Shown: positions 33,098-51,121 of the stretch, one piece after another
Numbering within the stretch: position 1 is the first letter of the stretch
Layout: each line of letters starts with the position of its first letter
From: Melioribacteraceae bacterium
Lineage (GTDB): Bacteria; Bacteroidota; Ignavibacteria; Ignavibacteriales; Melioribacteraceae
Direction: 5' to 3'
Assembly (NCBI GenBank): GCA_027030245.1
Contig: JALVFE010000016.1
Span: 124,001-188,000 of the forward strand
DNA length: 64,000 bases
Notes under the pieces: generated by a model
The model's input: the letters and a program-made list of their open reading frames with translations, nothing else
Told to the model about the DNA's origin: nothing
Database searches by the model: none
Translations under genes and position numbers: made by a program

Positions 33098-33098
33098 T

Positions 33099-34451
33099 CT
33101 AATTGCCAATATCAAACGGATAAACGAAAGAAACCCTCGGTTCAATTTTTTTCTGCGGTATAAAATCAATTACATTATCTTGTTCATCTCTTAAAGGCGT
33201 AAACGTCCAATGATATACTAATGAAACAAGTAAATATGGCATCGGTTTGTAACCGAGTTCCGCAAACAAATATGAGCGGTCGTCCAAAGTAAAGATATCC
33301 GCTTCGTCTTGAATATTGATTTTATCATATCCGGCACGTGCCACGTAAGGGAAGCCTTCTGGCGAAACATCCGTTTCCAAATGCAAAATTCCGCTTTTCG
33401 GATGCTCATCCAAACGTTGGTAAGAGCCAAGGATATCGAAACTTCCCAAAACGCGGACGAGTAATTCGCCGTAGAATCCGTTCCCAACCGACTGAAGGGT
33501 TTCCAACTCTTTAACCTTGCTCGATACTGTTCCGGTTGTTTCGTCAAATTTAAATCTTTCTATTTCGTAAAATGAATTAAAATACGCGGGCAAATAATGA
33601 TCGCCGTTTAACCTTCTTTCCAATTTAGCTTGAAGGTTCACTAAGCCCAGACCGTTTAATCTTAGCATGGCGCCAACGGTTTGCCCCTCACCGAAGTTGA
33701 CAATTTTTGCATAATCAAAATACAGCTCCAATCTGGCCAACGATGTTTTAATAATCGGTAAACCCAAATCAAATCCGTATGCTTGAACCGTACCAAAATC
33801 TTGTGAAGGTTTAAACTCGTTTGTTGCCGGATCGATGCTTCCCGCAGTAACACCGGCATATTTGTTGAAATCGGTAATGTAGGTCGCCCCAATTTCAAAA
33901 TTTCCTATGATTGGAATATCACCGGCATCCGTAAATTGCAGAGGGCGAACATAGCCACGGAATCCTACAACGCCGTCTTCCCCAAAGCTGGAATAAACTC
34001 CTTCAAAACCACCGACTCCCAAATCCAAATCGAGTTCCATTCCGACTTTACGCGTATCGTAGCTGGGACTATTATTATAAAGGTACATCAAACTTCCGTG
34101 TCCCAATGTAGCATAATCGAGAACTCCCAAGCGTGCATAAAACGGATCTCCTTTAACACCATATCGTACATATCGGATGATACTCAAATAATCGGAGAAT
34201 TCATTAAAGTTTTCCGACCTGATTTTACCATTTTGATCAAATTCAAGATTCAGATCGAGTCCGACACCAAAATTGGCAAAAGCAAGTTCCGGGAAAAGAT
34301 GAAATGTGTAATGAGGTTTATTATCAATCCACGTAACACCGAACCCACCGCCGAGAAATCCTTCGTAAGGATTCAGTCTTCTGTATTGCGCATTACTATT
34401 AACAGACAAAACGAAAAACAACAAAACCAAAAATGAGATTTTTGTTTTCAT
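33099..34451 (-). CDS. Outer-membrane beta-barrel protein downstream of PorU
   Basis: 450 residues: a signal peptide (1-21, ending SVNSNAQ) and then alternating amphipathic strands throughout, with glycine- and aromatic-rich turns, as in outer-membrane barrels. The C-terminal segment EPRVSFVYPFDIGN is plausible as a final strand. No family was recognised with certainty. It starts 22 bp after porU. In many Bacteroidota, porU is followed by porV, a FadL-family shuttle for PorU, but the NPAG motif of that family is absent here, so it is at most a positional counterpart. A role next to the sortase is inference. Confidence 0.6.
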   Translation of the reverse strand: MKTKISFLVLLFFVLSVNSNAQYRRLNPYEGFLGGGFGVTWIDNKPHYTFHLFPELAFANFGVGLDLNLEFDQNGKIRSENFNEFSDYLSIIRYVRYGVKGDPFYARLGVLDYATLGHGSLMYLYNNSPSYDTRKVGMELDLDLGVGGFEGVYSSFGEDGVVGFRGYVRPLQFTDAGDIPIIGNFEIGATYITDFNKYAGVTAGSIDPATNEFKPSQDFGTVQAYGFDLGLPIIKTSLARLELYFDYAKIVNFGEGQTVGAMLRLNGLGLVNLQAKLERRLNGDHYLPAYFNSFYEIERFKFDETTGTVSSKVKELETLQSVGNGFYGELLVRVLGSFDILGSYQRLDEHPKSGILHLETDVSPEGFPYVARAGYDKINIQDEADIFTLDDRSYLFAELGYKPMPYLLVSLVYHWTFTPLRDEQDNVIDFIPQKKIEPRVSFVYPFDIGN

Positions 34452-34473
34452 GACTATCCCCGATATTTTTGAA

Positions 34474-37400
34474 TTATCTGACTACCGCAAGTTTTTGCGT
34501 AATTTCTTGGGTTTTTCCGTTAGCATACATAATAACTTTGTAAATATACACACCGTTTGCCAATAAATCACCATCTTCGTCTCTGCCGTCCCAATAAATT
34601 CTGTTAAAATCATAATCCAATTCATTACCACTCAAACGGATTTTTTTAACGAGTCTTCCCGCAATGGTATAAACTTTAATATCAATTTCATCTGGAATCT
34701 GCGTTAATTTAAAAGTAAAATACGTTTCAGATGAAAACGGATTAGGATAATTGTATAAATTCAGAAGTTTGGTTTCATTATCAACCACAAAGGTTTTTGA
34801 GATGCCATTGGAATCCGCAATATTACCGTTTGCGTCTTTACCAAATACGGTTAGCGTGTACTCACCGTCTTTTAAGGTTGGAGTGTAGTTTACCACGACT
34901 TTAGGATTGGAATTAGAGAAAGAGATTTTTAACTCTTCTTGATTCAACGAATAATAAATTTGTTCGTCGTTAAGAAAAATCGTAACCGCAGATGTATCGT
35001 TAATCGGGACTAACGAAGGATCGTTCAGTTCAATTTTAATACGCGGCGTAGCCGAAATATATTCGCCTTCGAAAATATCTTCACCGTCGAAAGTAACATT
35101 TAAGGATGGTTTTGTTGTATCACCTTTTACATAAAAAGGTATTGAGTAAAAATTGTTATCTTCGAAAAGTTCTTGAATTTTATTTCCGGAATCGATTGTA
35201 ATATTAAATTGTCCTTCCCCTTTATAGTCAACGGTATTAAATACCACGTCAAATTTCTTTCGCTGTTCGGCTCCGATTGAATCCACTAACTGCTCAAAAA
35301 TTTGTTGTGTGGAATTATCCGGTTTAACCAAATCGACTTTAACTTTGAAACTATCTGCAGTAGATTCGCCAACATTGTAAACATAAAACGACAGATTGAT
35401 ATTTTCGCCTTGATCAACCGAGTCCTTATCAATCGATACAACTTGATAATTCGTACCAAGTTCGGGCACGCCGACATAATCCACCCCTAACGAATATAAC
35501 TTGGGTGATTGTAAATCCGCTGAAGCATTAAACTCGGCTAAAATTTTGATGTTACTATACGAAAGATTATTAAGAAATGACAAATCGGCTTCACCGTTAA
35601 CGGGCTGAACATAATCGAGAGTGTCGATTGTTGTCTCATTCCTGATTCCTAAAATCCTGTAATTAATCTTACTATCCGATGGGAGGGAATCGGAGACGGT
35701 TAGTTTGTGCCATCTACTGCTATTTCTAATTGTAGGAGTTTCGATTTCTCCGGTATCAGCAAGATAAATCATAGATGTATCAATTGTTACAGGGCCCTCT
35801 CCTTGATTCGAAAATGCCTCAGGCATAGTTCCTATTGCAGCACCTTTGCGACCAATAAGAGCCCAAGAACTACGAAACCTCACACTATCAATATATTTAC
35901 TTCCCAATGATCTTAATTGATTTTTTAGATCCTCATTTCTTGGAGTTCCTTCATCCGATATAGCGATTGCTACCAAATAATCCGAAGATAATGTATCTAA
36001 AAATTGAATATAATTATCAATATTTTCACCTCCAGCATACGTATTGAAATATTCATATTTCACAAAATTATAAGGTGGAACCGCGTTAAATAAAACAACA
36101 TGGTGACCTACCCGAGGAGTTGGGACATAATCTACTCCGTTTTTGGAAATTATTGCAGCTTGACCATCATTAAAACCAGCGGAAAAAACTTCAATTTTAA
36201 CTGATAATGAATCTATGGCTGCCCCTTTATTTGTTATAATGATGTTTTTTCTTTTTAGAAAGGAAAAACCAATACTGTCTTGAATAATGATTTTATTTTT
36301 ATTAATGTAAAAAGAAAAGGGGGAGGAATAATTTACCGATCCCTTAGTCTTCAATCTACCCCAGTATAGTTGTTTGGTACTAGGGTTTGGCAATGGAAAT
36401 TTTGTGTATAAGAGACCAAACTGTTTTGAATATTTAATAGGGGCTATGAAATTTGAATCTGTGGACATTTCCAAAATAATTTTATTAGATGCAGACAATG
36501 TCGATGGATTAAGTACTTTAATTGTATCTAAAATCCCATTAAGATTAGAATAAAATAGTAATGGACGAACTTCAGAACTTGAAACTATAAATGATATTTT
36601 AGCATTATTATCATTTTCATTGATTTCTTCATATTTATTATTTGGATCAAGAATAATTACCAGGTCATGTTTGCCCGCTTTATTTCTAATTGGGAGATTA
36701 ATGGAGACAGTATCTTCGTAAAAAGGTACCGGAGTTTTCAAGAAAACCGAATCAGCGTGCTCTTTAAATGTATGAATAATCAATATATCTAAAGAATCAT
36801 TTAATACGATACCAAAATTATTAAAAATAATTTCAAAGTTAGCGCTATCTTGTGAATCTGTTAGATAGTCTGATCGGTTATGTATATTAGGTGAACTAAT
36901 CAAAAAATTAGGTTTATCTGGTATGGGCAAATTAATAATCGGATCACCAATAAAATTATTTGTTAAAACAAAAAGCTCGGAAGTTCCAGACCCATTTTGT
37001 AATAATTCTACTTTAGCTTGTTTATGTGCTTCAGAAACATTAAAAATTTTCTCATTCAATATATTTTTATAAAATAATTTCGGAGCAGATATAGCAGTCG
37101 ATAAAAATCCTAAAGAAGAATTGCCCACATAGGCAATAGCTTGGCCGTTATCATCTAGAGTAAATAGCTCAGAAAAAGATGTTATATCAGGTTCTGCAAA
37201 CTTACCAGTTGAACAACCAAAATCCGACACGATGGGGAAACGTTGTTTATCATTTCCCAATTGTTCGGGATTTACTATAGTATTATCCCAAATTTGTGTA
37301 CCGCTATGCCCCAGATAAGAAATAAACACCCCACTTTTGTTGATCTCTTGTTCAATATATTCATGAGAATATGGTCCGAAATTTGTAGGCGGATCAATTG

Positions 37401-39777
37401 TCTTGTAAAAGTGAATTGCCTTCCCACCAATTGGCATGGGAGTTACATAATTGTCAATAACAAATTGATTGGCGTTATAAAGTGCTTCCAATTCAGATGG
37501 ATTGGCAGCATCACCACTTGAAAAAAATAAGAATCTTTTATTCCATTCATCATAACCTTGACTGACATAGGTTTTGTGTTTTTCAATATACCAATCAAGT
37601 TGTTCGTTTGTTGCAACTGGGATCCTACCGATATTCATTTGCGGGATATATGCGCCGGTTGTATCCCAAATCACAAACCAACTATCACTAACAGGGGCCC
37701 CGAAAGATGGCACATAATTAATTACCCTTTTTTTCACTGAACTTATATTTTTATATTTATTTCCATAATAATCATAAGTCGCACTTCCTATTAGAACAAC
37801 ATATTTCGGTTTTGGTGATTGCCAATACGCATGTGTAGATTGTAGAAAACTTTTTATGGCTTCGGGATTAAAAAATCCATAAGAATATTCATCATAAATA
37901 TCATTGATATTTACTACTTTAGTGTTAACATCGTAAGTTGTTGAAATAAAATCAACATAATCAGTAACCTTGTTGAGAAATTTATCATGTGTAATTGCAA
38001 TATAATCCGCTTTATTTTGAGAGCTTCTTAAATTTTTAAACTGTTTAGAATAATATATTTTAGGTGATTGTATTTTAGAATTGTCAATAAAATAGAATTT
38101 GGATTTAGCGGAAATTGAATCGGCGAAAATAATATTATTATTATCCTTAGTTACAATATACTTGGTATATCTGTCGCCGTAACGCCAAAGTGAAAAATTA
38201 TCCGTGGATACATTCGTTATTTTTATTTTTTCCGGCACTTCAGAACTATCTAAAAATGTAAAGGAAAAATTCAATGAATCGTCAAACGGAATTAGATAAC
38301 GAGGATATTCAATTTCGTACCAGTCAAAAATGCAAGCGTTTACTGTTGCATCTGTTTGAATAGAATTTATATTCAGAATATTATTACCTTCATTTAACAA
38401 ATTAGTACTTAATTCATTTTTTAATACCACTTTTTGATATTTATTTATATAAATTGAATCGCTCCAGTTTGAAGAATTTACCCCCAACGAAAGAAGATGT
38501 GCATTTTGGAAAATATTTGAGGCAAAATCTTGTAGCTTAGCAAATACCCAAAATTTTTTATCTTTCACAAAATCACTGACATTAAAGTTTTTATTATATA
38601 TTCTTACACCCAAAATATGTTCATGCCAAGTTTTATTTTCTGTCCAGAAAGGTTTTTCCCTTTCCACTAAATTTGAAGATGAAAAATCGAATGCAACATT
38701 TCTTTCATAATGATCTATTTGATGGTAATAATTTAATGTATCAATGGCGTTGTTACTCGAATTATTTTTAATCTCTACTCTTTTTCCATTTTCACCGTTC
38801 CATGTAAGCCAATACACGGTTGTATCGGTATAACGCCCTAAATATTCGTTATATGGTTGACTGTATCCGCTTACTTCCCTGTGGTGTCCGCCCATGTTTC
38901 TAATTCCAACGAATTCGATATAATCATTATTATCGAAACTCAAATCATTTTCCCCGGAAACGTAAATCGGGATTTCTACTCCTTTTAAATATAATTTAAA
39001 TGTTTTAGGATTTATCGAATTCGTAGGTATGTTGAAATTGTCCAAATCGGTTTTTGTCAAACGATATACTGCGTCTTTTGCTGTTCCAATTTTTAGATAT
39101 TCCTGATCCGGATTTACCCAATTAAATGTAGTATCATTAATTAGAATTTTATTAGTTCTAAAATGAGTAGCATATTGGTAGTTGATAATAACATTGCTTG
39201 TTCCAGAATCCGTTTCTTTAAGATCAACTTTTTTTACCAGAGACGCATTATTGATTTTTAATAATAATTTGATTTTTTGTATCTCTTTTACTTTTTTTTC
39301 TTTACCGTTATAAGAGTATTGATTAATTCTTATATGCGCACAATAAAATTCATCAATCCACAAATAACCTATTAATTCTACAATTGGCCTGTTAGAAATA
39401 TGCTTAAAATTGATTTTTTTATACGTGAAAGAGGTTGTTGAATCATTTAATAATATGGGTCTTGGATTAATTCCTAAGTCGAAATTAAATTCACGCTCTT
39501 TTAAAATTTTTTGTTGTATTATTACAGATGAACCAGGCGGTATTGCGATAAAAACATTTTTTGATGGTAACGCATATTCTCCAGGGTGGCTAACATCAAA
39601 ATATTTTCCTAATACTCCTTGGTCCTTTTCTTTTTTTAGAGAAAGCAAATTTACTTTTCCTAAACTTACAACCATTGAGATTGAGTTATCATTTTCTATG
39701 TAATCCTCTAAACGAGTTTGTGCGTTAAGTGTTATAAACATTAAAATAGACGAGAGAATAAAATAAAGTTGTTTCAT
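34474..39777 (-). CDS. porU: T9SS sortase PorU (C25 cysteine peptidase)
   Basis: 1,767 residues, longer than the ~1,150 of P. gingivalis PorU. Signal peptide 1-19. The gingipain-type (C25) catalytic pair is His824 in YLGHSGTQIW and Cys855 in SDFGCSTGKF. Ig- and CARDB-like domains follow (for example NLSFYVYNVGESTADSFKV near 1500), and the end is a sorting domain-like segment (NYPNPFSSETYFTF, KVYTIAGRLVKKI, GVYIYKVIM). PorU cuts the C-terminal signal of T9SS cargo and joins the cargo to anionic LPS. It lies 26 bp after a glycosyltransferase cluster and 22 bp before a barrel gene. Chain length and extra domains are typical of the Ignavibacteria/Chlorobiota branch. Confidence 0.9.
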   Translation of the reverse strand: MKQLYFILSSILMFITLNAQTRLEDYIENDNSISMVVSLGKVNLLSLKKEKDQGVLGKYFDVSHPGEYALPSKNVFIAIPPGSSVIIQQKILKEREFNFDLGINPRPILLNDSTTSFTYKKINFKHISNRPIVELIGYLWIDEFYCAHIRINQYSYNGKEKKVKEIQKIKLLLKINNASLVKKVDLKETDSGTSNVIINYQYATHFRTNKILINDTTFNWVNPDQEYLKIGTAKDAVYRLTKTDLDNFNIPTNSINPKTFKLYLKGVEIPIYVSGENDLSFDNNDYIEFVGIRNMGGHHREVSGYSQPYNEYLGRYTDTTVYWLTWNGENGKRVEIKNNSSNNAIDTLNYYHQIDHYERNVAFDFSSSNLVEREKPFWTENKTWHEHILGVRIYNKNFNVSDFVKDKKFWVFAKLQDFASNIFQNAHLLSLGVNSSNWSDSIYINKYQKVVLKNELSTNLLNEGNNILNINSIQTDATVNACIFDWYEIEYPRYLIPFDDSLNFSFTFLDSSEVPEKIKITNVSTDNFSLWRYGDRYTKYIVTKDNNNIIFADSISAKSKFYFIDNSKIQSPKIYYSKQFKNLRSSQNKADYIAITHDKFLNKVTDYVDFISTTYDVNTKVVNINDIYDEYSYGFFNPEAIKSFLQSTHAYWQSPKPKYVVLIGSATYDYYGNKYKNISSVKKRVINYVPSFGAPVSDSWFVIWDTTGAYIPQMNIGRIPVATNEQLDWYIEKHKTYVSQGYDEWNKRFLFFSSGDAANPSELEALYNANQFVIDNYVTPMPIGGKAIHFYKTIDPPTNFGPYSHEYIEQEINKSGVFISYLGHSGTQIWDNTIVNPEQLGNDKQRFPIVSDFGCSTGKFAEPDITSFSELFTLDDNGQAIAYVGNSSLGFLSTAISAPKLFYKNILNEKIFNVSEAHKQAKVELLQNGSGTSELFVLTNNFIGDPIINLPIPDKPNFLISSPNIHNRSDYLTDSQDSANFEIIFNNFGIVLNDSLDILIIHTFKEHADSVFLKTPVPFYEDTVSINLPIRNKAGKHDLVIILDPNNKYEEINENDNNAKISFIVSSSEVRPLLFYSNLNGILDTIKVLNPSTLSASNKIILEMSTDSNFIAPIKYSKQFGLLYTKFPLPNPSTKQLYWGRLKTKGSVNYSSPFSFYINKNKIIIQDSIGFSFLKRKNIIITNKGAAIDSLSVKIEVFSAGFNDGQAAIISKNGVDYVPTPRVGHHVVLFNAVPPYNFVKYEYFNTYAGGENIDNYIQFLDTLSSDYLVAIAISDEGTPRNEDLKNQLRSLGSKYIDSVRFRSSWALIGRKGAAIGTMPEAFSNQGEGPVTIDTSMIYLADTGEIETPTIRNSSRWHKLTVSDSLPSDSKINYRILGIRNETTIDTLDYVQPVNGEADLSFLNNLSYSNIKILAEFNASADLQSPKLYSLGVDYVGVPELGTNYQVVSIDKDSVDQGENINLSFYVYNVGESTADSFKVKVDLVKPDNSTQQIFEQLVDSIGAEQRKKFDVVFNTVDYKGEGQFNITIDSGNKIQELFEDNNFYSIPFYVKGDTTKPSLNVTFDGEDIFEGEYISATPRIKIELNDPSLVPINDTSAVTIFLNDEQIYYSLNQEELKISFSNSNPKVVVNYTPTLKDGEYTLTVFGKDANGNIADSNGISKTFVVDNETKLLNLYNYPNPFSSETYFTFKLTQIPDEIDIKVYTIAGRLVKKIRLSGNELDYDFNRIYWDGRDEDGDLLANGVYIYKVIMYANGKTQEITQKLAVVR

Positions 39778-39803
39778 ATTATTTAGGAATTATTATTAAA
39801 TAT

Positions 39804-40694
39804 TTATTTCGAGATAATTTTTTTTGTTAAATAAGCAACAGCATAAACCGGACGTATAATAATAGTTAAAAAGCTGTAGAAAAAAAATTCAATATATTTA
39901 TTAGATAAAAAACCCAATAGGACTTTTTTGTAAAAAAATTTACTTAACAACAATTTTTTTTCGAACAATCTTGTACTTTTTCCCAAAGCAAAATGGTTAT
40001 TAATAATCAAAATTTGTTTTTTAACTATTGAATTAAAGTTTTCTTGGGTAAAACTTTTTTCGGATAAACGGACACCTTGATAAATTTCGGAAAGATTAGA
40101 TAACTGTCCTAAATTTGACATCCTTAAAAAAAAACCAAGGTCAGGAACAGGATAATCTTCTGCTGAATAGTAATTAGCTTTTTGGGCACATTCCTTTCTA
40201 AACATTATGGTAGGATTAAATATCATTTGCCCATACTTCCGAATACCGCTAAGAATTACATCATTGTCCGATGGTAATTTTATTTTCCATTTTTTTTTTG
40301 CACCGGTGAAATAGTAAATAGAAGTTCCTACCAAAACAATATTTTCATTATTTTCCAAAAACGAAATTTGTTTTTCGAATCTTTCATTTGGACAAATATC
40401 ATCGCTATCCATTATCGCAATATATTTTGTGTTAGAATTTTTAATCCCAATATTCATTGCTTTTATAAGATCATTACTTTTCAAATAAATTAACCGAATG
40501 TTTTTATTTTCTCTTTCATATCTTTTCAATATTTTTTTTGACGAATCAGTGGAACCGTTTTCAATTATTATTATATCGAAATTTGAAAAAGAAGAATTCA
40601 AAACGGAATTTAAACTTGCTTCAATATATTTTTCAGCATTGTAAACAGGTATAACAACTGTCAAAAGTTTTCCTTCAGACATCCAGAATCTCAA
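39804..40694 (-). CDS. Glycosyltransferase family 2 (GT-A fold)
   Basis: 296 residues. VVIPVYNAEKYIEASLNSVL opens the nucleotide-sugar domain, IIIENGSTDSS follows, and IAIMDSDDIC carries the DxD-type metal site. RKECAQKANYYSAEDYPVPDLGFFLRM corresponds to the acceptor side. The C-terminal 60 residues are hydrophobic and basic and would tie the enzyme to the inner membrane. The donor sugar is unknown. The start overlaps the WecG-type gene by 20 bp, and porU follows after 26 bp, so it is the last enzyme of the glycan run before the sortase gene. Confidence 0.87.
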   Translation of the reverse strand: MRFWMSEGKLLTVVIPVYNAEKYIEASLNSVLNSSFSNFDIIIIENGSTDSSKKILKRYERENKNIRLIYLKSNDLIKAMNIGIKNSNTKYIAIMDSDDICPNERFEKQISFLENNENIVLVGTSIYYFTGAKKKWKIKLPSDNDVILSGIRKYGQMIFNPTIMFRKECAQKANYYSAEDYPVPDLGFFLRMSNLGQLSNLSEIYQGVRLSEKSFTQENFNSIVKKQILIINNHFALGKSTRLFEKKLLLSKFFYKKVLLGFLSNKYIEFFFYSFLTIIIRPVYAVAYLTKKIISK

Positions 40695-41385
40695 AATTTA
40701 TTTTTTTGAATACTACTCTATAGCAAAAAAACGGAAAACCAAATAAATAACGTTTCCAAACAGATTTAAACTCTTTGGTTAGTTTATAGAACCATTCCAA
40801 ATGCATTCTGCGTAAGAATAATGGTGCTCTTTTCTTATTTTCAGCCAAATATTGAAACCAGCCACCAACACTTATAATCAATTTAACATTCAACTTTTTG
40901 TAATTATTAATTATCCATTTTTCCTGTCGTGTAGCACCGAGTCCCACAAATAATACATCCGAATTACTTTTATTAATCGTTTCAATTACTTCATATTCAT
41001 TGTAAATATAACCGTTATGAAAACCTGCTAATTGTAAAGAGCCTTTTCTTTCAAGAAGAGTAATTTTTACCTTATTTAATATTTCATCCGAATCACCAAA
41101 TAGAAAAATTCTTTTACCGGAATTTGCAAGAAAATTTAAGAGGTTATGTTGTAAATCAGTACTTACTATTTTAGCAACTTTATTGTCCACAAATAATTTT
41201 AAAATAAAATAAACAGCAGTTGAATCGGGATATAGTTTAAAATTAATTGGAATTTCCAATCTGCTTTCATAAATATGATTAATTACATTAAAATCAGCAT
41301 ACATTATTACACATGGTTCAGAACCGGAATTAAATAATCCTTTTTTTATTTTATCGATATCCAAATTAGTTAGTCTTATTATCAT
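40675..41385 (-). CDS. WecG/TagA/CpsF-family glycosyltransferase
   Basis: 236 residues, the standard length. Hallmarks include RIFLFGDSDEILNKV and VLFVGLGATRQEKWI, and the end of the family motif VSVGGWFQYLAENKKRAP with RRMHLEWFYKL. Members add N-acetylmannosamine or its uronic acid to a lipid-linked sugar early in the making of teichoic acid linkage units, enterobacterial common antigen and similar glycans. That role fits a lipid-linked glycan built on the inner membrane and moved by the flippase at 46051. The start overlaps the GT9 gene stop as ATGA, and the end overlaps the next GT2 gene. Confidence 0.9.
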   Translation of the reverse strand: MIIRLTNLDIDKIKKGLFNSGSEPCVIMYADFNVINHIYESRLEIPINFKLYPDSTAVYFILKLFVDNKVAKIVSTDLQHNLLNFLANSGKRIFLFGDSDEILNKVKITLLERKGSLQLAGFHNGYIYNEYEVIETINKSNSDVLFVGLGATRQEKWIINNYKKLNVKLIISVGGWFQYLAENKKRAPLFLRRMHLEWFYKLTKEFKSVWKRYLFGFPFFCYRVVFKKINFEILDV

Positions 41386-42488
41386 TTTAGCAACTTATTA
41401 ACTTCGTTTATAACCATCTCCGGTGTAACATCAGTTAAACAATACTTTTCATTTTTAGAACATTCCCAATGACATAAAAAGCAATCCATTTCATGAAATA
41501 AAAACCGGACTTTTTCAGACTCCCGATATGGAAAAAATCTACCAAATTCACCTCCGCCTATAATAGCTATTAGAGGTATCCCTATTTTTAGAGCGATATG
41601 AGTAATCCCAGAATCTAAACCAATAAATAATTTCGAATTAGCCAATAATTTAGGGATCTCATTCAATTTTAAATTACCGGCTAAAACGGTAACGTTTTTA
41701 TTTTTACCGGCTAGTAAAGTTAATCTCTTTTTTTGATTAAGAGAACCTATTAAAATTATTTTGAATCTTGAACTTAGTTGGTCAATTATTATTTTGAAAT
41801 ATTCCGGTTTCCAATCTCGGTTTCCTGCGGAAGAAAATGGTGCAATAATAATATTATTATCCTTAATCTCAATGTTTTTTTTAATATGACCGAATAGCTG
41901 GTTAGAGTTAAAATGAAATTTACATTTTTTTTTATTTAACCATTTCATCAAAGCATAATGTTTTGCATATTCATTTAATACTTCTTCTGCTAATATGTAT
42001 GTATAATTTTTTAAAAAATATTTTCCCAAACGCGAACCTAAATATTTCACAAAATTATTAATTGTAATTAATTCTTTCGCACCGATTAAGTGAACTAATT
42101 CTTCATTTAAAATTCCTTTAGCCGCACTTAAGTGAATACATTTTTCATAACCCTTTTTTCTTAAGTTTCGAATCAAATTATATTTATATTTTATTGAATA
42201 TTTATATTTAAGATAGTTATACCCAATAAAATCTATTTTACCGGAATAATTTTGGAACAATTGCAGATATTTTTCTTTAATTAAGAAATCAACTCTTGGA
42301 TAACTTTCAAGAATTTGCGGATTTTCCAATAATATTGAAGAAACTATTAAATCACCAATTTCTCCGGTATTTACAAATAAAACAGTATTTTTTTTTATTT
42401 CCGCATTTGGTAAAATTTTTTTTAAAATAAAAAAAATACCGAATTCAAAATAATTTTTAATTTGTCTTATCGGTTTTATTAAAATCAT
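41382..42488 (-). CDS. Glycosyltransferase family 9 (heptosyltransferase-like)
   Basis: 368 residues with two Rossmann halves (GT-B). The GT9 pattern is visible: ILFVNTGEIGDLIVSS-type start, PFSSAGNRDWKPEYF in the middle and GLDSGITHIALKIGIPLIAIIGG near residue 300. GT9 enzymes usually transfer heptose to LPS inner core. A cysteine cluster near the end (FLCHWECSKNEKYC) is found in many of these enzymes and may bind metal. Whether this acts on LPS core or on the surface glycan cannot be settled. It overlaps the upstream GT2 gene by 32 bp. Confidence 0.85.
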   Translation of the reverse strand: MILIKPIRQIKNYFEFGIFFILKKILPNAEIKKNTVLFVNTGEIGDLIVSSILLENPQILESYPRVDFLIKEKYLQLFQNYSGKIDFIGYNYLKYKYSIKYKYNLIRNLRKKGYEKCIHLSAAKGILNEELVHLIGAKELITINNFVKYLGSRLGKYFLKNYTYILAEEVLNEYAKHYALMKWLNKKKCKFHFNSNQLFGHIKKNIEIKDNNIIIAPFSSAGNRDWKPEYFKIIIDQLSSRFKIILIGSLNQKKRLTLLAGKNKNVTVLAGNLKLNEIPKLLANSKLFIGLDSGITHIALKIGIPLIAIIGGGEFGRFFPYRESEKVRFLFHEMDCFLCHWECSKNEKYCLTDVTPEMVINEVNKLLK

Positions 42489-43392
42489 GCTTGCTAGGTC
42501 TTATTTGCTTGGCGAAAGTAATTCCCGAAAGAATTGAAAGAATATATTTAACGGCAAAATCGAATCTCTTCTGTAAGAATACAAGACAAAATGTATCATA
42601 AATATATGTTTTTACTAATCGCCTGAATGAAAAATTTTGATGCAGAAACCAAATAGCCATTATGTTACGAGGAAAATATTTAATCGCCAATGCATCAAGA
42701 TATTTATATTCATAAAAAAACTTTCCTTTTCCAATATATTTTTTTTCTTCTAAAGGATGATAAATAATTGCTTGTGGAATTGTAATAATATCAATACCAT
42801 TTTCAATAATTCTCAAATAATAATCATATTCATCACCATAAATAAAAAAATCTGGATTAGGATAGCCAACAATCGAAATTATTTTACTCGGTAATAAAGT
42901 ACCGTTAAAAAAACCAGCTCCGTATATAATTGATTGTTCAGCAAAATCATCCAAGCTTTTGTAAAATTTTTTACTTTTATAATCCATCAATCCAAATGCT
43001 AATTTTTCTTTTGTTATTTTATCAACAACAACAGAATTTAAAACCACTTCTTTATCCGTATCAAATGAAAGTAATGCTTCCAACGAATCATTTGCGGGCA
43101 AACCATCATCATCCATAACCCAAATCCAATCGTAACCCCTTTCGTATGCTGTCTTTATTCCTGTGTAAAACCCGCCGGCCCCTCCGAGATTTGCTTGGTG
43201 TATAACAGTTAAATCTTTTTGACTATCCAACCATTCTTTCGTACCGTCTTTACTATCATTATTAATTATAATTATTTCATCCAATTTTCTGGTCTGATTT
43301 CTTAACGCATGAACACACTCTTTTAATAGTTCCAGTCTATTATAAGTTACAACAACCGCCGCAATTTTTTCTTTTATATCTTCCATTATCAA
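42457..43392 (-). CDS. Glycosyltransferase family 2, galactofuranosyltransferase-like
   Basis: 311 residues. The start AAVVVTYNRLELLKECVHAL and the metal site WIWVMDDDGLPANDSLEAL, with a triple Asp, resemble GlfT/rhamnosyl-type GT2 enzymes. YPNPDFFIYGDEYDYYLRI gives the acceptor-side acidic residues. The gene lies 62 bp downstream of glf, the mutase that makes UDP-galactofuranose, which supports galactofuranose as donor (inference from context). C-terminal residues 240-300 contain hydrophobic and basic segments consistent with membrane contact. Confidence 0.82.
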   Translation of the reverse strand: MIMEDIKEKIAAVVVTYNRLELLKECVHALRNQTRKLDEIIIINNDSKDGTKEWLDSQKDLTVIHQANLGGAGGFYTGIKTAYERGYDWIWVMDDDGLPANDSLEALLSFDTDKEVVLNSVVVDKITKEKLAFGLMDYKSKKFYKSLDDFAEQSIIYGAGFFNGTLLPSKIISIVGYPNPDFFIYGDEYDYYLRIIENGIDIITIPQAIIYHPLEEKKYIGKGKFFYEYKYLDALAIKYFPRNIMAIWFLHQNFSFRRLVKTYIYDTFCLVFLQKRFDFAVKYILSILSGITFAKQIRPSKHDFNKTDKTN

Positions 43393-43454: not shown

Positions 43455-44540
43455 TTAACTGCCGAAAATTTTTAACATCTTTCCTACCACAACATCCATA
43501 TTGTAATACTTATACTCCGCAAGTCTTCCGCAGAAATAAACGTTCTTTAATTTTTCCGCTTCCCGTTTATATTGCAAATATAGTTTTTTATTTTCTTTTG
43601 TGGGAATTGGATAGAACGGGTCGCCGGTTTGCCGTGAATATTCTTTGCTGATCGTGGTTAAATTTTTTTTCTGTCCCGTAAGATATTTGTATTCGGTGAT
43701 TCTTGTATATTTTGGTTCCGGTTCAACATAGTTAACAACCGCCGCTTCCTGGTATTTTTCTTGTTCTATTGTCTCCCATTCAAATTTGAGCGACCTGTAC
43801 GGCAGTCTACCGAATTTGTAATCGAAAAAATAATCTACCGGACCGGTGTATATCATTTTTCCAAATTCAATATCATTCAAAATGTTTTTATAATCCGTGT
43901 TGAATATAATTTCTATATTCTTGTGATTCAACATCCGCTCAAACATTTTAGTATAACCGTCTTTGGGCATAAACTGGAATTTATCCGTAAAGTAACGGTC
44001 ATCGCTATTGGTTCTGACCGGAATTCGTCCGGTTACTGCCGGCGATAGTTCCTTTGGTTCAAGATTCCACTGTTTTTTTGTATAGAATTTAAAGAACTTT
44101 TCAAAAAGGTCAATGCCAATCTGATTAACAATTATATCTTCCGAATTTAAAATGGGATGTCTTTTTTCTCGTACGCTCTCATAAAATTCCTCGATTTCCT
44201 TATCCGTAGTAAAATTTTTTCCGTAGAGTTTATTTATCGTGGTTCTGTTAATCGGAATAGGATAAAGCTTTCCGTTTAATTTAGCAAGAACACGATGTTC
44301 GTAAAATCTCCATTCCGTAAATCGTGAAAGGTAATCAAAAACCTTTTTACTGTTTGTATGAAAGATGTGCGGACCGTATTTATGTATTAAAACTCCGTGT
44401 TCGTTATATTCATCGTAAGCATTGCCGCCTATGTGCGAACGTTTTTCAACGAGCAAAATTTTATTTCCACGCGAAGCCAATCTTTCAGCGGCAACTGCGC
44501 CCGCAAATCCGGCACCAACTATCAGGTAATCGTATTTCAT
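43455..44540 (-). CDS. glf: UDP-galactopyranose mutase
   Basis: 361 residues, usual length. The FAD loop is YLIVGAGFAGAVAAERLASRG; HKYGPHIFHTNSKKVFDYLSRF and YFTDKFQFMPKDGYTKMFERML are signature stretches of UGM, and CGRLAEYKYYNMDVVV closes the protein. It converts UDP-galactopyranose to UDP-galactofuranose, using reduced FAD, to supply surface glycans. The start shares bases with the stop of the AAA ATPase upstream (TAATG). It is the only gene in the window that fixes the chemistry of the cluster. Confidence 0.96.
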   Translation of the reverse strand: MKYDYLIVGAGFAGAVAAERLASRGNKILLVEKRSHIGGNAYDEYNEHGVLIHKYGPHIFHTNSKKVFDYLSRFTEWRFYEHRVLAKLNGKLYPIPINRTTINKLYGKNFTTDKEIEEFYESVREKRHPILNSEDIIVNQIGIDLFEKFFKFYTKKQWNLEPKELSPAVTGRIPVRTNSDDRYFTDKFQFMPKDGYTKMFERMLNHKNIEIIFNTDYKNILNDIEFGKMIYTGPVDYFFDYKFGRLPYRSLKFEWETIEQEKYQEAAVVNYVEPEPKYTRITEYKYLTGQKKNLTTISKEYSRQTGDPFYPIPTKENKKLYLQYKREAEKLKNVYFCGRLAEYKYYNMDVVVGKMLKIFGS

Positions 44541-45733
44541 TATTTTAAATATCCCGCTAAAAACAAAGGTCTTTTAATACCGTCGAATCTATATCCGTCG
44601 ACAAAAATTATGGATTTCTCCAAATCGATGCCTTTAAACTGTTTAATACCTTTCCCTTTACCTCCGACCTCAATTACATATTTAGAGCCTTTTTCATCAA
44701 TAATGTAATCCGGTGTTTTCTTCCCTTTTTTTGTTTTTAGATAGTTGATTTTCTTATTAGAAATTTTAATACATTCTACAAAAAAATCCTCACGTAAACC
44801 ACCTACCGCTTCTTGATATTCTTTATAAAGCAATCTGTAAGGTAAATTCATAACTATTTTAGGTTCTCTTAAAACATTTGTTCCTGCTGGAAAAAGTACA
44901 TTTAATACAAAAGCTTTTTCTAAAAGATTTATATATTGTTCCGCTTTGTATTTTGTAATATTAAGATTATTTGCAATTGCCGAATAACTGATTCCCTCAA
45001 TTTGGGATTTACCGATAAACATTACAATTTTTTTTATTATTTCCAGTTCATCTGTAGCAAGTTTGGCAACTACCGGAATATCCCGATAAATTATTTTTTC
45101 GAGAATATTTTTCTGCATAACCAAAACATCAGGTTCTTCAAGGGAAAAAGGCATCAATCCACCGGTAACATATTTGTTAAATAAACGACCTTCTCTAATG
45201 TGATTTTTGTTCCATCTTTTATCTTTTATATCCTTCAGAGTAATCGCCTTCAAATTAATATTTTCCTTAAAAAATAAATATTCACGATAACTGAACGGAT
45301 AAATTTTGAATATCTTAATTCTCCTCGATAAATCGTAAACTGAATCAAATAACGATAGCGAAACCGAACTAGTGAAAAAAATTTTAACATTTAAAAAATC
45401 ATAAATAGTTTTTAGTGCATTTTCATAATTTTTATAAAAATGAATTTCATCAAGGAAAAATATTTTGTATTTGTAAAATTCATTTAACGTTTTAATCAAC
45501 TCAAACAAATCCTCAATCTCTACCGAATCAATTGAAATATAAATCGAATCTTCTGTTTGCGCGGCAATTTGTTTAAATAATATGGTCTTACCAACTCCTC
45601 GCGCTCCAATCAATCCAACAAAATGTTTCCCTTTATCTTTTATTAATCGTTCAGCTACATATCTCTTTCGGGAATACTCACGACTTTGTTCCATTGCATT
45701 TTGATGAAATTCTAAAATTTTACTTATTTCCAT
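44540..45733 (-). CDS. AAA_14/DUF4143 ATPase
   Basis: 397 residues. Walker A is GARGVGKTILFKQ near residue 43, and Walker B is KIFFLDEIHFYKN. After the ATPase core comes a winged-helix part (ISYSAIANNLNITKYKAEQYINLLEKAFVL) and a nuclease-like DUF4143 segment ending in YVIEVGGKGKGIKQFKGI, which keeps the E-x-G and lysine spacing. Such genes move among genomes and have no agreed function; some lie close to toxin-antitoxin loci. Here the gene is inserted in a glycan cluster and coupled to glf (TAATG). Its own promoter, with repeated half-sites, lies at 45751-45795. No role in glycan synthesis is implied. Confidence 0.85.
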   Translation of the reverse strand: MEISKILEFHQNAMEQSREYSRKRYVAERLIKDKGKHFVGLIGARGVGKTILFKQIAAQTEDSIYISIDSVEIEDLFELIKTLNEFYKYKIFFLDEIHFYKNYENALKTIYDFLNVKIFFTSSVSLSLFDSVYDLSRRIKIFKIYPFSYREYLFFKENINLKAITLKDIKDKRWNKNHIREGRLFNKYVTGGLMPFSLEEPDVLVMQKNILEKIIYRDIPVVAKLATDELEIIKKIVMFIGKSQIEGISYSAIANNLNITKYKAEQYINLLEKAFVLNVLFPAGTNVLREPKIVMNLPYRLLYKEYQEAVGGLREDFFVECIKISNKKINYLKTKKGKKTPDYIIDEKGSKYVIEVGGKGKGIKQFKGIDLEKSIIFVDGYRFDGIKRPLFLAGYLK

Positions 45734-45750
45734 AACTTTCCCAATACGGT

Positions 45751-45795: not shown

Positions 45796-46050
45796 ATTTT
45801 TCCATAATGAACTTATTATACTATTCTTATTATTTTCAAGAACAGAATTTACTTTTACCAAAAAATCCGTATTTCCTGGTTTTATTCCTAACGTTAACTG
45901 AATTTTCTTGTAATGGATTCCGGGGAAATATTATCATTGCTGATATTTTTACAACTATACTTTGCAAATTATCGGATATTCTTACAAGTATACTTTACAA
46001 ATCCTACCATTTTAGGTTTTCTTTAAGGGTTAACATCAAAATCCGAATGA
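45796..46050. other. Non-coding gap with two 33-bp tandem repeats
   Basis: No gene recognised. Two imperfect tandem units of 33 bp occur at 45941-45973 and 45974-46006, sharing GATATT-TTACAA-TATACTTT-CAAAT. The second unit contains the near-palindrome AAGTATACTT on the minus strand. They look like operator repeats without an attached gene. Confidence 0.5.
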
Positions 46051-47313
46051 TTATATCTTTATCCCTTTTTTCTTAAGGAAAAAATACATTTGGGAAGTAA
46101 CTAAAATTTCCGTGAGCAATACGGTTATTGCCGTGCCTATTTCATAAAAAACAGGGACAAGAATTAACGAAACGGCAACACTGAAAACTCCGCTTAAAAA
46201 AATTATCCGGGAAAATTCCTTTTTAAATCCCAAATTCAACATTAGTTGTATTCCGTAAATATTGCTTAATAAAATTACAAGAGGTAAAAACAATATTATT
46301 CTGAAAACGGTTATAGACGGAATATAGTTATTCCCCAATACCAAAAGAACAATATCTTCCGAAAATATAAACATAAAAAGCGTAAGGACTATTGCAACGG
46401 AAACCGTTAATCGCATATAATTTTTAACAAATTTAAATGCTTTAATTTTCGATTCGCTAAATAATTTACTGAGATACGGAAAAACCGTTTGCGCTGCATT
46501 ATTGAATAACCCTTGAACGGCGTTTTTTATCTTGTCAGCTGCGGAAAAGTAACCCACAATTTCGTTTCCGGCAAACAATCCGAGTATAAAAGTGTTAGTA
46601 GTTGTGTAAAGAGTAATTGACGCCGTTGACATAAAAACATACCAGCCTTCCGTTAGTTGTCTCTTCAGTTCCGTTAACGAAGGTTTCCGGAATTTTACTC
46701 CATATCTGATTTTAACTACTATTAATCCGGCAATCCCGATTAAAACAAACGAAGTTCCGTTTAAGATTACTAATATTAAAATATCCGCCGGATTTTTGAT
46801 CAATAAAAAAACAGCAATTACCCAAATTGCTTTAACGGTAACGGATATTACCGTAATGTAATTCATTTCTTCCATACCCTGGAAAAACCAAACCGGCGAC
46901 AAAAGAGAACCGAATACGGCTAAAAAAGAAAAAATATAAACGGGTGCATCGACATAAAATTTTGGGATTCCAAAAACCAACGACAGAAAAACCAATAATC
47001 CGATTAAAAATAAAACGGTTTTAATAACAAAAACACTTGAAAAAATTTTGTTTATTTTATCTTGATTTTTTCGATTGACTGATATTTCTTGTGTTGCGGT
47101 AAGATTAAAACCGTAGTCGGTAAAAATTGTAAAATAGGTAACAAAGGCAGCGGCAAAATTTACCAATCCGAATTTCTCTGGACCGAGAACACGCACCAAA
47201 TACGGAAATGTAATTAACGGAAAAAGATAGTTAGAAAATTGAAGAACGGAAAGCGAGGAAAAATTCCGTATTAAAATTTTGTTATTGTTGAATATTTGTC
47301 TCAGAGGCAGCAA
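46051..47313 (-). CDS. Polysaccharide flippase (Wzx/MATE-like)
   Basis: 420 residues with about twelve hydrophobic helices. The start FSNYLFPLITFPYLVRVLGPEKFGLVNFAAAF is the typical Wzx/RfbX opening, and YFSAADKIKNAVQGLFNNAAQTVFPYLS is the conserved central part. It should turn a lipid-linked glycan repeat across the inner membrane. It lies 6 bp after the EnvC-like gene, and 317 bp before the AAA ATPase gene on the same strand. No polymerase (Wzy) was seen in the window, so the glycan could be a single unit, or the polymerase lies elsewhere. Confidence 0.9.
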   Translation of the reverse strand: MLPLRQIFNNNKILIRNFSSLSVLQFSNYLFPLITFPYLVRVLGPEKFGLVNFAAAFVTYFTIFTDYGFNLTATQEISVNRKNQDKINKIFSSVFVIKTVLFLIGLLVFLSLVFGIPKFYVDAPVYIFSFLAVFGSLLSPVWFFQGMEEMNYITVISVTVKAIWVIAVFLLIKNPADILILVILNGTSFVLIGIAGLIVVKIRYGVKFRKPSLTELKRQLTEGWYVFMSTASITLYTTTNTFILGLFAGNEIVGYFSAADKIKNAVQGLFNNAAQTVFPYLSKLFSESKIKAFKFVKNYMRLTVSVAIVLTLFMFIFSEDIVLLVLGNNYIPSITVFRIILFLPLVILLSNIYGIQLMLNLGFKKEFSRIIFLSGVFSVAVSLILVPVFYEIGTAITVLLTEILVTSQMYFFLKKKGIKI

Positions 47314-47319
47314 AACCGT

Positions 47320-48534
47320 TTACCTCTTAACCAGCCATTCTTCCGGATTCTGATAATTCCGCTCATTCCAAATTTCAAAATGCAGAATGTTCCCCTCCAA
47401 ATTCTCGTTAACTTTTCCTATTATGTCACCCGCCGAAACCTTATCGCCTTCTTCAACAATTATATCGGTTAAGTGACCGTAAACGGTTCGGAAATCATTT
47501 TTGTGGGTAAGAATAACAACGCTTCCGTAACCGGGAATCCATTCTATTGCGGAAACAATACCTTCGGCAACGGCATGAACAGCAGCGTCTTTCTTTGTTT
47601 CTATATCAATTCCGTAATTTAAAGTTACCGTTTTGGTTTTCTCGTTCTCGTTTTCCCCAAAATTCCTCACGATTTTTCCTTTAAGTACCGGCCAGGCAAG
47701 TTTCCCATTCAACTCGGCAAAATTCTCAAAATTGCTGTAGTCGTAAATTTCTTCCGGCGGGATTTCTTCTCCTTTCAGTCTTCTTTCATACAGTCTTTTT
47801 TTCCTTAAACGCTCTTTCTCGATTAAATCCGCAATCAAAGTTTTTATCTTAATTTCTGCACGTCTTTTTTTAACAATTTCCTCTTCCAAGGCTTTTTTGT
47901 CTTTTTTCAACTCCGCAATTAAATCCGATTTTTCTTTTTTTCTCAATTCCAGTTTGGCTTTATCTTTAATTTTCGAAGCAAGCAGATTCTCCTTTTCCCT
48001 TTTCTCCCTTTCGGCAACTTTTTTCATTTCTTCGTAACCGGCTTTTAATTCGTTGAGTTCGTTTAAAATTTTCTCATTCTTCTCGCTTATACTTTGCAAA
48101 TATTTATATCTCAACAATGCTTGATTTACTGAATTTGCATTCGATAAAAGTTTTAAAGTTGAATTTTCCCCTTGTTTGTAAAGCCAAACGATATACTTTG
48201 AATAGTCGCTTTTAAGTCTGTTTATTTTTGCTCCCGTCTTTTCGATTTCTTTTTCCAGCGATTTGATTTTTCCCGTTTTTTCGGAAATTTGTTTATCGAG
48301 TTTTTTTATAAATTTTGCCAATAAAAGAATTTGGCGGTCGATTTGCCGCAATGTGGAAAGGGATTTTTTCTGCTCCTCGTTTTTTTTGTTGATTTCGGTT
48401 TCAAGTTTTTCGATTTGCCGCTTTATCGAATTCAGTTCGTTTTTCTTTTGAGAAATCTTTTTTTGAAACTGGGCAAACGTTATCCCGCTAAGAAGCAATG
48501 AAATTATGAAAATATTTAATAACGATTTTACCAT
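47320..48534 (-). CDS. EnvC-like murein hydrolase activator (degenerate LytM)
   Basis: 404 residues: signal peptide (1-21), a long charged coiled coil (about 25-250, with QKKISQKKNELNSIKRQIEK at the start), then a C-terminal LytM/M23 domain. In active M23 enzymes the first zinc ligand is the His in HxGxD; here it is LNYGIDIET, with Asn in its place, while YGHL and LHFEIW keep their histidines. This matches the EnvC group, which activates amidases rather than cutting peptidoglycan. It overlaps the DUF4292 gene by 7 bp and precedes the flippase. Confidence 0.88.
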   Translation of the reverse strand: MVKSLLNIFIISLLLSGITFAQFQKKISQKKNELNSIKRQIEKLETEINKKNEEQKKSLSTLRQIDRQILLLAKFIKKLDKQISEKTGKIKSLEKEIEKTGAKINRLKSDYSKYIVWLYKQGENSTLKLLSNANSVNQALLRYKYLQSISEKNEKILNELNELKAGYEEMKKVAEREKREKENLLASKIKDKAKLELRKKEKSDLIAELKKDKKALEEEIVKKRRAEIKIKTLIADLIEKERLRKKRLYERRLKGEEIPPEEIYDYSNFENFAELNGKLAWPVLKGKIVRNFGENENEKTKTVTLNYGIDIETKKDAAVHAVAEGIVSAIEWIPGYGSVVILTHKNDFRTVYGHLTDIIVEEGDKVSAGDIIGKVNENLEGNILHFEIWNERNYQNPEEWLVKR

Positions 48535-49319
48535 TCCGTTATTTTAACATCTTCTGGAATCGGGAAAGTCATTTTATCTATTTTTTTATTTACTTCTATC
48601 CTGCGATAGCTAATATCCACGGTTTGGTTCTTATCCAAATTTACAAAATGTGTATTGCGTGGAATGGGAACATTTCTTAAATAGGTTTTAAAATCGGAAA
48701 ATTTACTTTCGAAAATGTTTTTCCCGTCAAGCATCGCCAAGCGGTAACCGGTTATTGCGAGCGTATTTATCAAAACGTTGTAAATACTTTTTTTGTTGTT
48801 CAAAGAATCCAAAAACGTTAAAGTATAATATTCTTCGTTAAATGAATATTCATCCGGTTCACGCCTTAATTTATCCGTCAAGTTCACTGCGCCGGTAAAA
48901 GCATCCAACAAATCATCGAACGAAATATTAACATGAAATAATTTCCGGATTATCTCGTCGCGCAACGCACCTTTGTAAGCTTTACTTTTCAAAACATCGT
49001 AAAAAACATAATCGTTTTTGGTAACCAGCATATAAGCCAAATCAATTCCGAAAGGACCATAAATCGCAAATTGTAAAGAGTCGGGTTTTTTCAACTTCAC
49101 TTCGAAACCGGCTTTGGCGTTCAGTTTAGGACTTTCCACACTGAATACGCCTGTTCCCTTGAAAGTTTTTACTTTCCTCCTTTTAGCTTCCAATTTTTTT
49201 ATTAACCGGTCGGCGGGTAAAATTTCTTCTTCGTATGCTTCTTTCGAAGGCACACAGCTTTCAACTGCGAGCAGCGTTAGAACAAAAATCATTAAAAGAG
49301 AAATAAACTTTTTCATCAA
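48528..49319 (-). CDS. DUF4292 lipoprotein
   Basis: 263 residues. A signal sequence ends in LLAVESC, a loose lipobox, so it is probably a lipoprotein. FKGTGVFSVESPKLNAKAGFEVKLKKPDSLQFAIYGPFGID is typical of DUF4292, a beta-sheet family with a LolA/LolB-like look found in Bacteroidota. It may carry or receive lipoproteins in the periplasm (inference). The order TPR protein, DUF4292, EnvC-like protein is commonly kept in this phylum. The start at 49319 overlaps the TPR gene by 4 bp. Confidence 0.82.
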   Translation of the reverse strand: MMKKFISLLMIFVLTLLAVESCVPSKEAYEEEILPADRLIKKLEAKRRKVKTFKGTGVFSVESPKLNAKAGFEVKLKKPDSLQFAIYGPFGIDLAYMLVTKNDYVFYDVLKSKAYKGALRDEIIRKLFHVNISFDDLLDAFTGAVNLTDKLRREPDEYSFNEEYYTLTFLDSLNNKKSIYNVLINTLAITGYRLAMLDGKNIFESKFSDFKTYLRNVPIPRNTHFVNLDKNQTVDISYRRIEVNKKIDKMTFPIPEDVKITEW

Positions 49320-51121
49320 ATTTTATTACCTTCAATTTTAATTTTAATTTCCGTGTTAGTCGAATCACGTTCGTAAGCCGAACGCCACATTTCCAGCGCT
49401 TTATCTTTTTTATTCATCTTTTCGTAAATATCTCCCAAATGGTCGAGCAGTGTGGGATTGCTTTCATCCAGTTCCAATGCTTTTTTTACATACTTTTCCG
49501 CTTTTTCATAATTTCCCAATTTGAAAAAAATCCACCCGATTGTATCAAGGTATGAAGAATTATAAGGCTCCTTACTTACCGCGCTTTTAGCTAATTTAAG
49601 AGCTTCGTTAAGCTTGATTCCCCTTTCCGCTAAAGAATACGCATAGTTGTTTTGTATTAACGTGTTGGAAGAATCGATTTGTAATGCTCTTTGGTAAACG
49701 CTATCGCATTGCGCATATTTTTTTTGGGAATCGTAAATTAAGCCAAGCGTTCCGAGCGCTTGGACATTTTCGGGATCAACGTCCAAAACTTTATTTAAAT
49801 GTTTAATTGCTTTAGTTTGTTGCTTCAGTTGATTATAACTGAAAGCTATTGCCAAATTCGCATTCAAATCCGCCGGTTGTAATTTTACCGCTCTTTCCAA
49901 ATACTTCAGAGCGTCTTCATGCTTTCCGGTTTGGGCAAGCGATAATCCGAGAATCAAATTTATTCCGAAATGATGCGGAAAATTAGCCGCAATTTTTTCC
50001 AATTCTTCCGCCGCTTCTTTGTATTTACCTTGATCGAAAAGCAAACCGCCGAGTCTTGCCCAAATATCCGAATTCCACTGCGCTAATCTGGAAGCTTCGC
50101 GGAAATATTCGGTGGCAACGGAATCATTGTTTTGTTGAATTGCGATCTCGCCTAAATAAGCCTTAATCTGCCAATCGGAACTGTCGCTGTCAATTACTTC
50201 AAGCAATTCTTTTGCAACCGGAATTACACTGCTGTCTTTCATCGCTTGAGCAATAAACAAACTGCCGATACGAACCTTGGAAGCAAAAGGCATTTCCGGT
50301 TCCGTAATTAATTTTTTATACTCACCGGATGCTTCCTTCCAACGACCGGAATAAACCAAGGCATTCGCTTTTAATTCTATAAGCCGTAAATCATCGGGAA
50401 AGAGACGCATTGCATCTTCTAACATTGCAAAAGATTTATCGAAATCACCGTGTTTGTTGTAAGCATCGATTAATATTTTTTGAAGTTTCAAATCGGAAGG
50501 ATTTAATTTAAGTAATTCTTCAACGGTGGAAATTGTCTCGTCAATTTTTCCAAGCCGTTCGTTCAACTCGGCTATTTTAAGAAGAACATTCCATTCCGGG
50601 CCGGTAATTTTCAACAGCTTTTTATAAACTTCAAGGGCTTTTAGGGGTTTATTCGCTTGATAAAGACGTCCCAAATTATAATGAGCTTGTAAATCCGTTG
50701 AGTCAATCTGGATAATCCGTTCGTACATTTTTTCCGCATCGTCGAAGTTTCTGCCGTAGGAATAAATATCGCCGAGAAGGAAATAATAATCCTTATTTGT
50801 GGAATCGAGTTCTACGGCTTTTTCGGCATATTTTTTTGCGAGCGCAAGTTTATTCAATCTGAAATAATTTTTCCCCAACGCAAAGTAAACACCCGCCGAA
50901 GAATCGTACTGGAGCGCTTCTTGAAAATCCAAAATCGCTTCGGCGTAATTCCCTTTCATTTCATTCATTGTTCCGTCAACGAAATGGGAAAGGGCAAGCT
51001 TTTCCGCTTCCTTAATTTTGGTGGTTTTCTCTTTTACTAATGAAAAATCGTCTTTCGATACTTTTGCCGAACAACCGGCGATTAATACCACTAAAAATAT
51101 TTTTATAATCTTTTTCAACAT
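49316..51121 (-). CDS. Lipoprotein of tetratricopeptide repeats
   Basis: 601 residues. The signal ends in VLIAGCS, a good lipobox. About fifteen TPR units follow from residue 43 to the end, for example ALQYDSSAGVYFALGKNYFRL and ALELDESNPTLLDHLGDIYEKM, each 34 residues with the W-LG-Y-A-F-P spacing loosely kept. It should be a periplasmic scaffold, anchored to a membrane, that binds partner proteins. It heads the run that continues with DUF4292, the EnvC-like gene and the flippase. No partner can be named. Confidence 0.88.
   Translation of the reverse strand: MLKKIIKIFLVVLIAGCSAKVSKDDFSLVKEKTTKIKEAEKLALSHFVDGTMNEMKGNYAEAILDFQEALQYDSSAGVYFALGKNYFRLNKLALAKKYAEKAVELDSTNKDYYFLLGDIYSYGRNFDDAEKMYERIIQIDSTDLQAHYNLGRLYQANKPLKALEVYKKLLKITGPEWNVLLKIAELNERLGKIDETISTVEELLKLNPSDLKLQKILIDAYNKHGDFDKSFAMLEDAMRLFPDDLRLIELKANALVYSGRWKEASGEYKKLITEPEMPFASKVRIGSLFIAQAMKDSSVIPVAKELLEVIDSDSSDWQIKAYLGEIAIQQNNDSVATEYFREASRLAQWNSDIWARLGGLLFDQGKYKEAAEELEKIAANFPHHFGINLILGLSLAQTGKHEDALKYLERAVKLQPADLNANLAIAFSYNQLKQQTKAIKHLNKVLDVDPENVQALGTLGLIYDSQKKYAQCDSVYQRALQIDSSNTLIQNNYAYSLAERGIKLNEALKLAKSAVSKEPYNSSYLDTIGWIFFKLGNYEKAEKYVKKALELDESNPTLLDHLGDIYEKMNKKDKALEMWRSAYERDSTNTEIKIKIEGNKI

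Follow-up and report, generated by a model that had tools for sequence, protein, structure and literature searches.

What is a sortase-type gene doing at the end of a glycan biosynthesis cluster? The question is raised by a window of 64,000 nucleotides from a Melioribacteraceae bacterium (positions 124001-188000 of contig C16 in a 3.8-Mb assembly of 40 contigs), in which a gene for a C25-family protein with a type IX secretion system (T9SS) C-terminal domain closes a minus-strand run of flippase and glycosyltransferase (GT) genes that also holds Glf, a gene for galactofuranose (Galf) supply (Table 1). The initial annotation took the C25 gene for porU and placed cargo, sortase and anchor synthesis on one transcript. 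The gene was found to be a second, non-housekeeping, PorU2-like paralogue whose association with glycan genes recurs across the class. A role of this PorU2-like module in anchoring cargo to a glycan is the leading explanation offered by the sequence comparisons presented below.

Identity of the C25 gene

The top-scoring models for the window C25 protein were PorU2 (NF052324) and PorU (NF033707), and the match spanned a long N-terminal part of the protein beyond the C25 domain. The score with NF033707 was 274 bits, under the curated cut-off of 420 bits. The curated cut-off of NF052324, 450 bits, was reached by none of the 149 sampled genomes of the class that were profile-searched, and because it was missed the protein is called PorU2-like (PorU2 for short below) and is not filed as a PorU2 member. 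The canonical full-length PorU of the window genome was located on contig C9 with 967.5 bits, the next gene being porV (PF19572, 109 bits); the porU assignment was therefore abandoned. Exactly one canonical PorU was determined in each of 20 relatives tested, with porV adjoining every one, and no WecG gene was present near canonical PorU in the fetched stretches of these 20 relatives. The window C25 gene is neighboured by a GT2 gene on one side and a barrel gene on the other, not by porV.

In a FastTree phylogeny of 137 C25 rows, of which only the main forks were used, 21 canonical PorU sequences were united in a single clade with full support; the gene of the window grouped with other long C25 proteins apart from them. 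The N-terminus of the PorU2-like protein resembles a signal peptide. The catalytic pair, His824 and Cys855, was invariant across 23 relatives, very diverged copies included. Neither PorU2 nor a PorU-WecG link was found in the literature searched, which was covered in part.

Two other arrangements of long C25 genes were observed. A third type of long C25 gene, coding for about 1910-1930 aa without an ILEI domain, is found at three loci of family f2 (L060, L062 and L064), each time with a 610-aa gene after it. In two loci of family f13 (L066, L067) a tandem pair of PorU2-like genes stands straight after WecG.

Linkage of PorU2 with WecG and glycan genes

A strong PorU2 match, defined as 340 bits or more, was obtained with 48 sampled genomes of the class, spanning 12 families. 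Forty of these have a WecG-family gene no farther than 3.5 kb from PorU2, against a chance expectation of about 0.24 pairs; with the limit at 15 kb the count is 43. The adjacency was found in nine of the 12 families. WecG was present anywhere in the genome in 45/48 strong-PorU2 genomes vs 24/91 others (p about 1e-15), or in 46/48 vs 23/91 when a fragment in G088 is counted. In another count WecG was present in 31/31 PorU2-positive and 4/28 PorU2-negative genomes. At 31 fetched loci WecG lies directly upstream of PorU2 on the same strand, the two genes overlapping in 15 of them, and at 7 further loci it is adjacent in the reverse orientation. The other glycosyltransferases of these loci are variable, mostly GT4, GT2 and GT9. 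In families f1, f2 and f12 the variable glycan genes stand between fixed flanks, TPR-DUF4292-M23 on one side and the barrel gene on the other; the remaining families have different flanks, yet WecG is still beside PorU2.

Relatives with empty sites or PorU2 relics indicate that the flippase-to-sortase block was gained or lost together. In G086, which belongs with the window genome to family f1 and has no PorU2, the M23 gene is followed by the barrel gene after 56 bp and the whole flippase-to-PorU2 block is absent; after the barrel come HAD, PQQ, LepA, signal peptidase and S8 cargo genes, matching the window order. In G145 the barrel gene is missing along with the module. In G135 two relics between M23 and the barrel match the last 47-63 residues of PorU2 with 60-66% identity. 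That the sortase-type gene and the glycan cluster belong together, as first suggested for the window, is thus borne out by synteny in nine families of the class and by joint gain or loss of the block. The S8 gene, in turn, persists where the module is absent and is independent of it.

Galactofuranose was considered as the defining feature of the system and rejected, since Glf is missing from many PorU2 loci outside families f1 and f2. Within these two families Glf was detected in 11/12 PorU2-positive and 0/8 PorU2-negative genomes (p 7e-5), and the copy in the window is the sole one of its genome. Among 39 genomes Glf occurred in 14. It lies within the PorU2 locus in 13 of them, and the PorU2 locus of the remaining one (G021) is broken by a contig end. 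Galf is tied to the PorU2 locus in the f1/f2 lineage and is not general to PorU2 loci.

The ILEI domain

Besides the C25 domain, PorU2 contains an ILEI domain of the type found in FAM3 proteins and in the stem of POMGnT1. It was detected by Pfam in 23/23 relatives. With a family hidden Markov model it was detected in 71/73 Ignavibacteria-type sequences (both misses being short pieces), 10/11 of a 1620-aa type and 15/35 Bacteroidia relatives, and in none of 21 canonical PorU. The domain sequence matched FAM3 proteins and the POMGnT1 stem (5ggj, phmmer E-value of 1.4e-7), and its structure model (pLDDT 93.5) matched FAM3 and the POMGnT1 stem in Foldseek with E-values of 5e-9 to 9e-8 and TM-scores of 0.73-0.80 at best.

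The POMGnT1 stem binds N-acetylglucosamine (GlcNAc) via Arg129, Asp179 and Arg207 (PMC9802357). Read off the alignment, Asp179 corresponds to D1275 (D in 18/23 relatives) and Arg207 to R1302 (R in 20/23); this mapping was made by counting positions in the alignment as printed, and the chain offset was deduced from the three contact residues. Since two of the three GlcNAc contacts are mostly retained, it is plausible that the ILEI domain of PorU2 binds sugar. The fold is common to PorU2, the POMGnT1 stem and FAM3, but in PorU2 it is fused to a bacterial sortase-type protein.

Fourteen genomes tested carried a single PorZ each, PorU2 present or not, and a second PorZ serving PorU2 was therefore rejected. 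The built-in ILEI domain might thus replace PorZ-type glycan delivery for PorU2.

Proposed role and alternatives

To our knowledge, the chemical identity of the T9SS cargo anchor is known only for Porphyromonas gingivalis. In this species PorU attaches cargo to a glycan, and anionic lipopolysaccharide is handed to PorU by PorZ (PMC8545088). The SAGA linker is made by WbaP, GtfC, GtfF and VimF (PMC13086638). P. gingivalis PorU and the window protein are alike in having a C25 His/Cys centre, a T9SS C-terminal domain of their own and a link to a glycan pathway, which in P. gingivalis is functional. The window gene differs in being a PorU2-like paralogue of a canonical PorU encoded elsewhere in the genome, in having the ILEI domain and in clustering with glycan genes, and its cluster has WecG and Galf genes instead of those of the SAGA linker. 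No P. gingivalis Wbp/Vim SAGA genes were noted among the Pfam matches of the cluster, no search aimed at such genes having been made.

We give even chances to the locus being an exchangeable module, in which a second, PorU2-like T9SS sortase is kept with its own glycan genes and anchors some cargo with T9SS C-terminal domains. The fuller proposal, for which the chances are somewhat short of even, is a second T9SS sortase class with built-in ILEI domain and its own Wzx, WecG and GT genes, forming an exchangeable cassette that anchors private cargo to a variable, lineage-specific glycan beside the housekeeping PorU-PorV-PorZ. The glycosyltransferases, including WecG, would assemble a glycan, Galf-containing in the present case, on a lipid carrier; Wzx would flip it, and the glycan would arrive at the cell surface on some lipid. 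PorU2 would be exported by the T9SS via its own C-terminal domain and would bind this glycan through ILEI; at the His/Cys centre, some T9SS cargo would be cleaved from its C-terminal domain, and the C-terminus thus exposed would be linked to the glycan.

Several points weigh against this proposal. The window protein scored 418 bits with NF052324, a near full-length match that is still under the cut-off, although this model of a putative PorU2 is the best-scoring one. Eight of the 48 strong-PorU2 genomes have no WecG within 3.5 kb, partly owing to contig ends, and no WecG was found adjoining the Bacteroidia PorU2-like genes. The genomes behind the co-occurrence and linkage counts are related, and hence these counts are not phylogenetically independent. 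The cluster contains no ligase or initiating transferase. The equivalent of Arg129, one of the three GlcNAc contacts, is not conserved in the PorU2-like ILEI domains. Finally, transpeptidation by PorU2 is a prediction.

The C25 family also includes plain proteases, the gingipains. As the His/Cys pair is retained and canonical PorU and PorZ are already present in every genome tested, PorU2 could instead be a glycan-guided surface peptidase, tethered by ILEI to the glycan of the cluster and trimming or releasing surface proteins. This is unlikely, because the best models are those of the sortases PorU2 and PorU, over a region well beyond C25, and because the Bacteroidia homologues often have a PorV-like neighbour. 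A role of PorU2 itself as a glycan-bound or glycan-assembling surface protein, which retains or organises the polysaccharide of the cluster at the outer membrane and uses its peptidase centre for maturation only, would agree with the T9SS domain, the sugar-binding type of ILEI and the loss of the gene along with the glycan genes; it is made quite unlikely by an active-site pair that does not vary even in very diverged copies and by the sortase-type N-terminal region. The linkage itself might reflect a common hot spot of insertion or joint transfer, PorU2 being a passenger among variable glycan genes, and the fixed flanks around variable glycosyltransferases in f1, f2 and f12 are what would then be expected. 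We consider this very improbable, since WecG stays beside PorU2 under other flanks, adjacent even when inverted and often overlapping, and the two genes co-occur genome-wide. The original picture, in which a single transcript carries the housekeeping PorU together with its cargo and the genes for its anchor glycan, prompted by C25 and T9SS domains beside glycan genes, deserves almost no credence with canonical PorU beside porV on C9, the cargo beyond opposite-strand genes and S8 kept without the module.

If the glycan-anchor role holds, T9SS anchors would be many and lineage-specific, and could be read off the genes that each locus holds. Stygiobacter electus (locus L097) is a cultured member with a PorU2 locus and makes the anchor question testable. 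The arrangement would also resemble, by analogy only, the pairing of exosortase with exopolysaccharide genes. In the exosortase/PEP-CTERM system a sorting enzyme is likewise encoded with polysaccharide genes and distributed sporadically (PMC1569441), but that enzyme is an unrelated membrane protein and recognises another signal.

Cargo candidates and PorV-like neighbours

The S8 protease gene at 24354 and the repeat-protein gene at 22579 had been proposed as cargo on the cluster transcript. Plus-strand genes at 29781-32154 separate both from the cluster, and they cannot share its transcript; together with the persistence of S8 in genomes lacking the module, this led to rejection of the single transcript. 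In eight distinct relatives (L050, L056, L068, L077, L078, L091, L114, L116) a small fibronectin type III (FnIII)-like protein of about 210-260 aa is encoded directly downstream of PorU2, and in the single copy put through Pfam the C-terminal end is a T9SS domain scoring above the cut-off. This protein, absent from the window, is a candidate for dedicated cargo. About 107 T9SS C-terminal domains were counted in the window genome, which points to heavy use of export by the T9SS.

In Bacteroidia (Rufibacter, Algoriphagus, Chitinophagaceae and others; L134-L168) the gene immediately upstream of the PorU2-like one is often PorV-like and codes for about 360-400 aa, e.g. L137:8744-9877. Of three such neighbours scanned, one passed the PorV cut-off and two matched weakly. 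The arrangement suggests a second shuttle-sortase pair and supports a role of PorU2 in T9SS processing. As the Bacteroidia PorU2-like genes often have a PorV-like neighbour instead of WecG, the glycan linkage is lineage-specific.

Gene layout of the cluster

The minus-strand order is TPR, DUF4292, M23, Wzx, AAA_14/DUF4143, Glf, GlfT1-like GT2, GT9, WecG/TagA, GT2, C25 and barrel. TPR, DUF4292 and M23 are fixed flanks and not glycan genes. Between Glf and the last GT2 the genes are spaced by -32 to +62 bp, and overlaps of 32, 4 and 20 bp tie together GT2-GT9-WecG-GT2. The one-strand run of flippase, Glf, two GT2, GT9 and WecG/TagA genes with small gaps or overlaps given in the initial annotation was reproduced, but an ATPase gene within the run and a 317-bp gap separating the flippase from the Glf side had not been mentioned. 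Likewise the spacing of 26 bp between the last GT2 and the C25 gene was correct, only the gene is not porU. In a sequence scan promoter-like sites were no commoner than in shuffles, and minus-strand positions 39778-39803 held no terminator-like site. Rfam gave no match.

Table 1. Coordinates of the cluster genes and of the domains of the PorU2-like protein. Gene positions are those of the window; scores and cut-offs are in bits.
Feature	Position	Strand	Evidence
M23 (EnvC-like) peptidase, upstream flank	47320..48534	-	PF01551; retained in genomes without the module
Wzx-type flippase	46051..47313	-	PF01943, 223
AAA_14/DUF4143 ATPase	44540..45733	-	PF13173 and PF13635
Glf, UDP-galactopyranose mutase	43455..44540	-	TIGR00031, 378 (over curated cut-off 303.75)
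GT2, GlfT1-like, candidate galactofuranosyltransferase	42457..43392	-	NF050113, 133 (under cut-off 330)
GT9 (heptosyltransferase-like) glycosyltransferase	41382..42488	-	PF01075, 65.5
WecG/TagA/CpsF-family glycosyltransferase	40675..41385	-	PF03808, 145
GT2 glycosyltransferase, last before the C25 gene	39804..40694	-	PF00535, 122
PorU2-like C25 gene, 1767 aa	34474..39777	-	Pfam, NCBIfam, invariant His/Cys, tree
C25 domain, His824/Cys855	residues 592-950		PF01364, 186 (over cut-off 23)
ILEI domain	residues 1224-1313		PF15711, 63.3 (over cut-off 27)
ILEI (POMGnT1-stem/FAM3-like) coding stretch	35758..36210	-	phmmer, model, Foldseek
CARDB domain	residues 1448-1545		
FlgD-type T9SS C-terminal domain	about residues 1677-1767		TIGR04183, 25.2 (over cut-off 23)
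Outer-membrane beta-barrel, downstream flank	33099..34451	-	signal peptide and strands; Foldseek generic porins; retained in empty site L194

The barrel gene was considered as a ligase or polymerase and rejected, its signal peptide, strands and Foldseek matches being those of a generic outer-membrane barrel; Wzy_C-type and Glycos_transf_4 genes are present elsewhere in the genome.

The AAA_14/DUF4143 ATPase gene is missing from most other PorU2 loci and is probably not part of the cluster function. It shares 75% identity with its counterpart beside Glf in L053, where the neighbouring genes share only 24-71%, and has perhaps moved recently as a cassette. Just 5' of it, at 45793-45765, is the top promoter-like site of the region. 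Past the barrel gene, at 32160-33110, repeated hairpins such as CTGTCACCGACTACTCGGTGACAG stand on both sides of a small gene for a Y1 transposase (minus strand, 32416-32979), and the whole looks like a repetitive extragenic palindrome (REP)-associated transposase with its own repeats.

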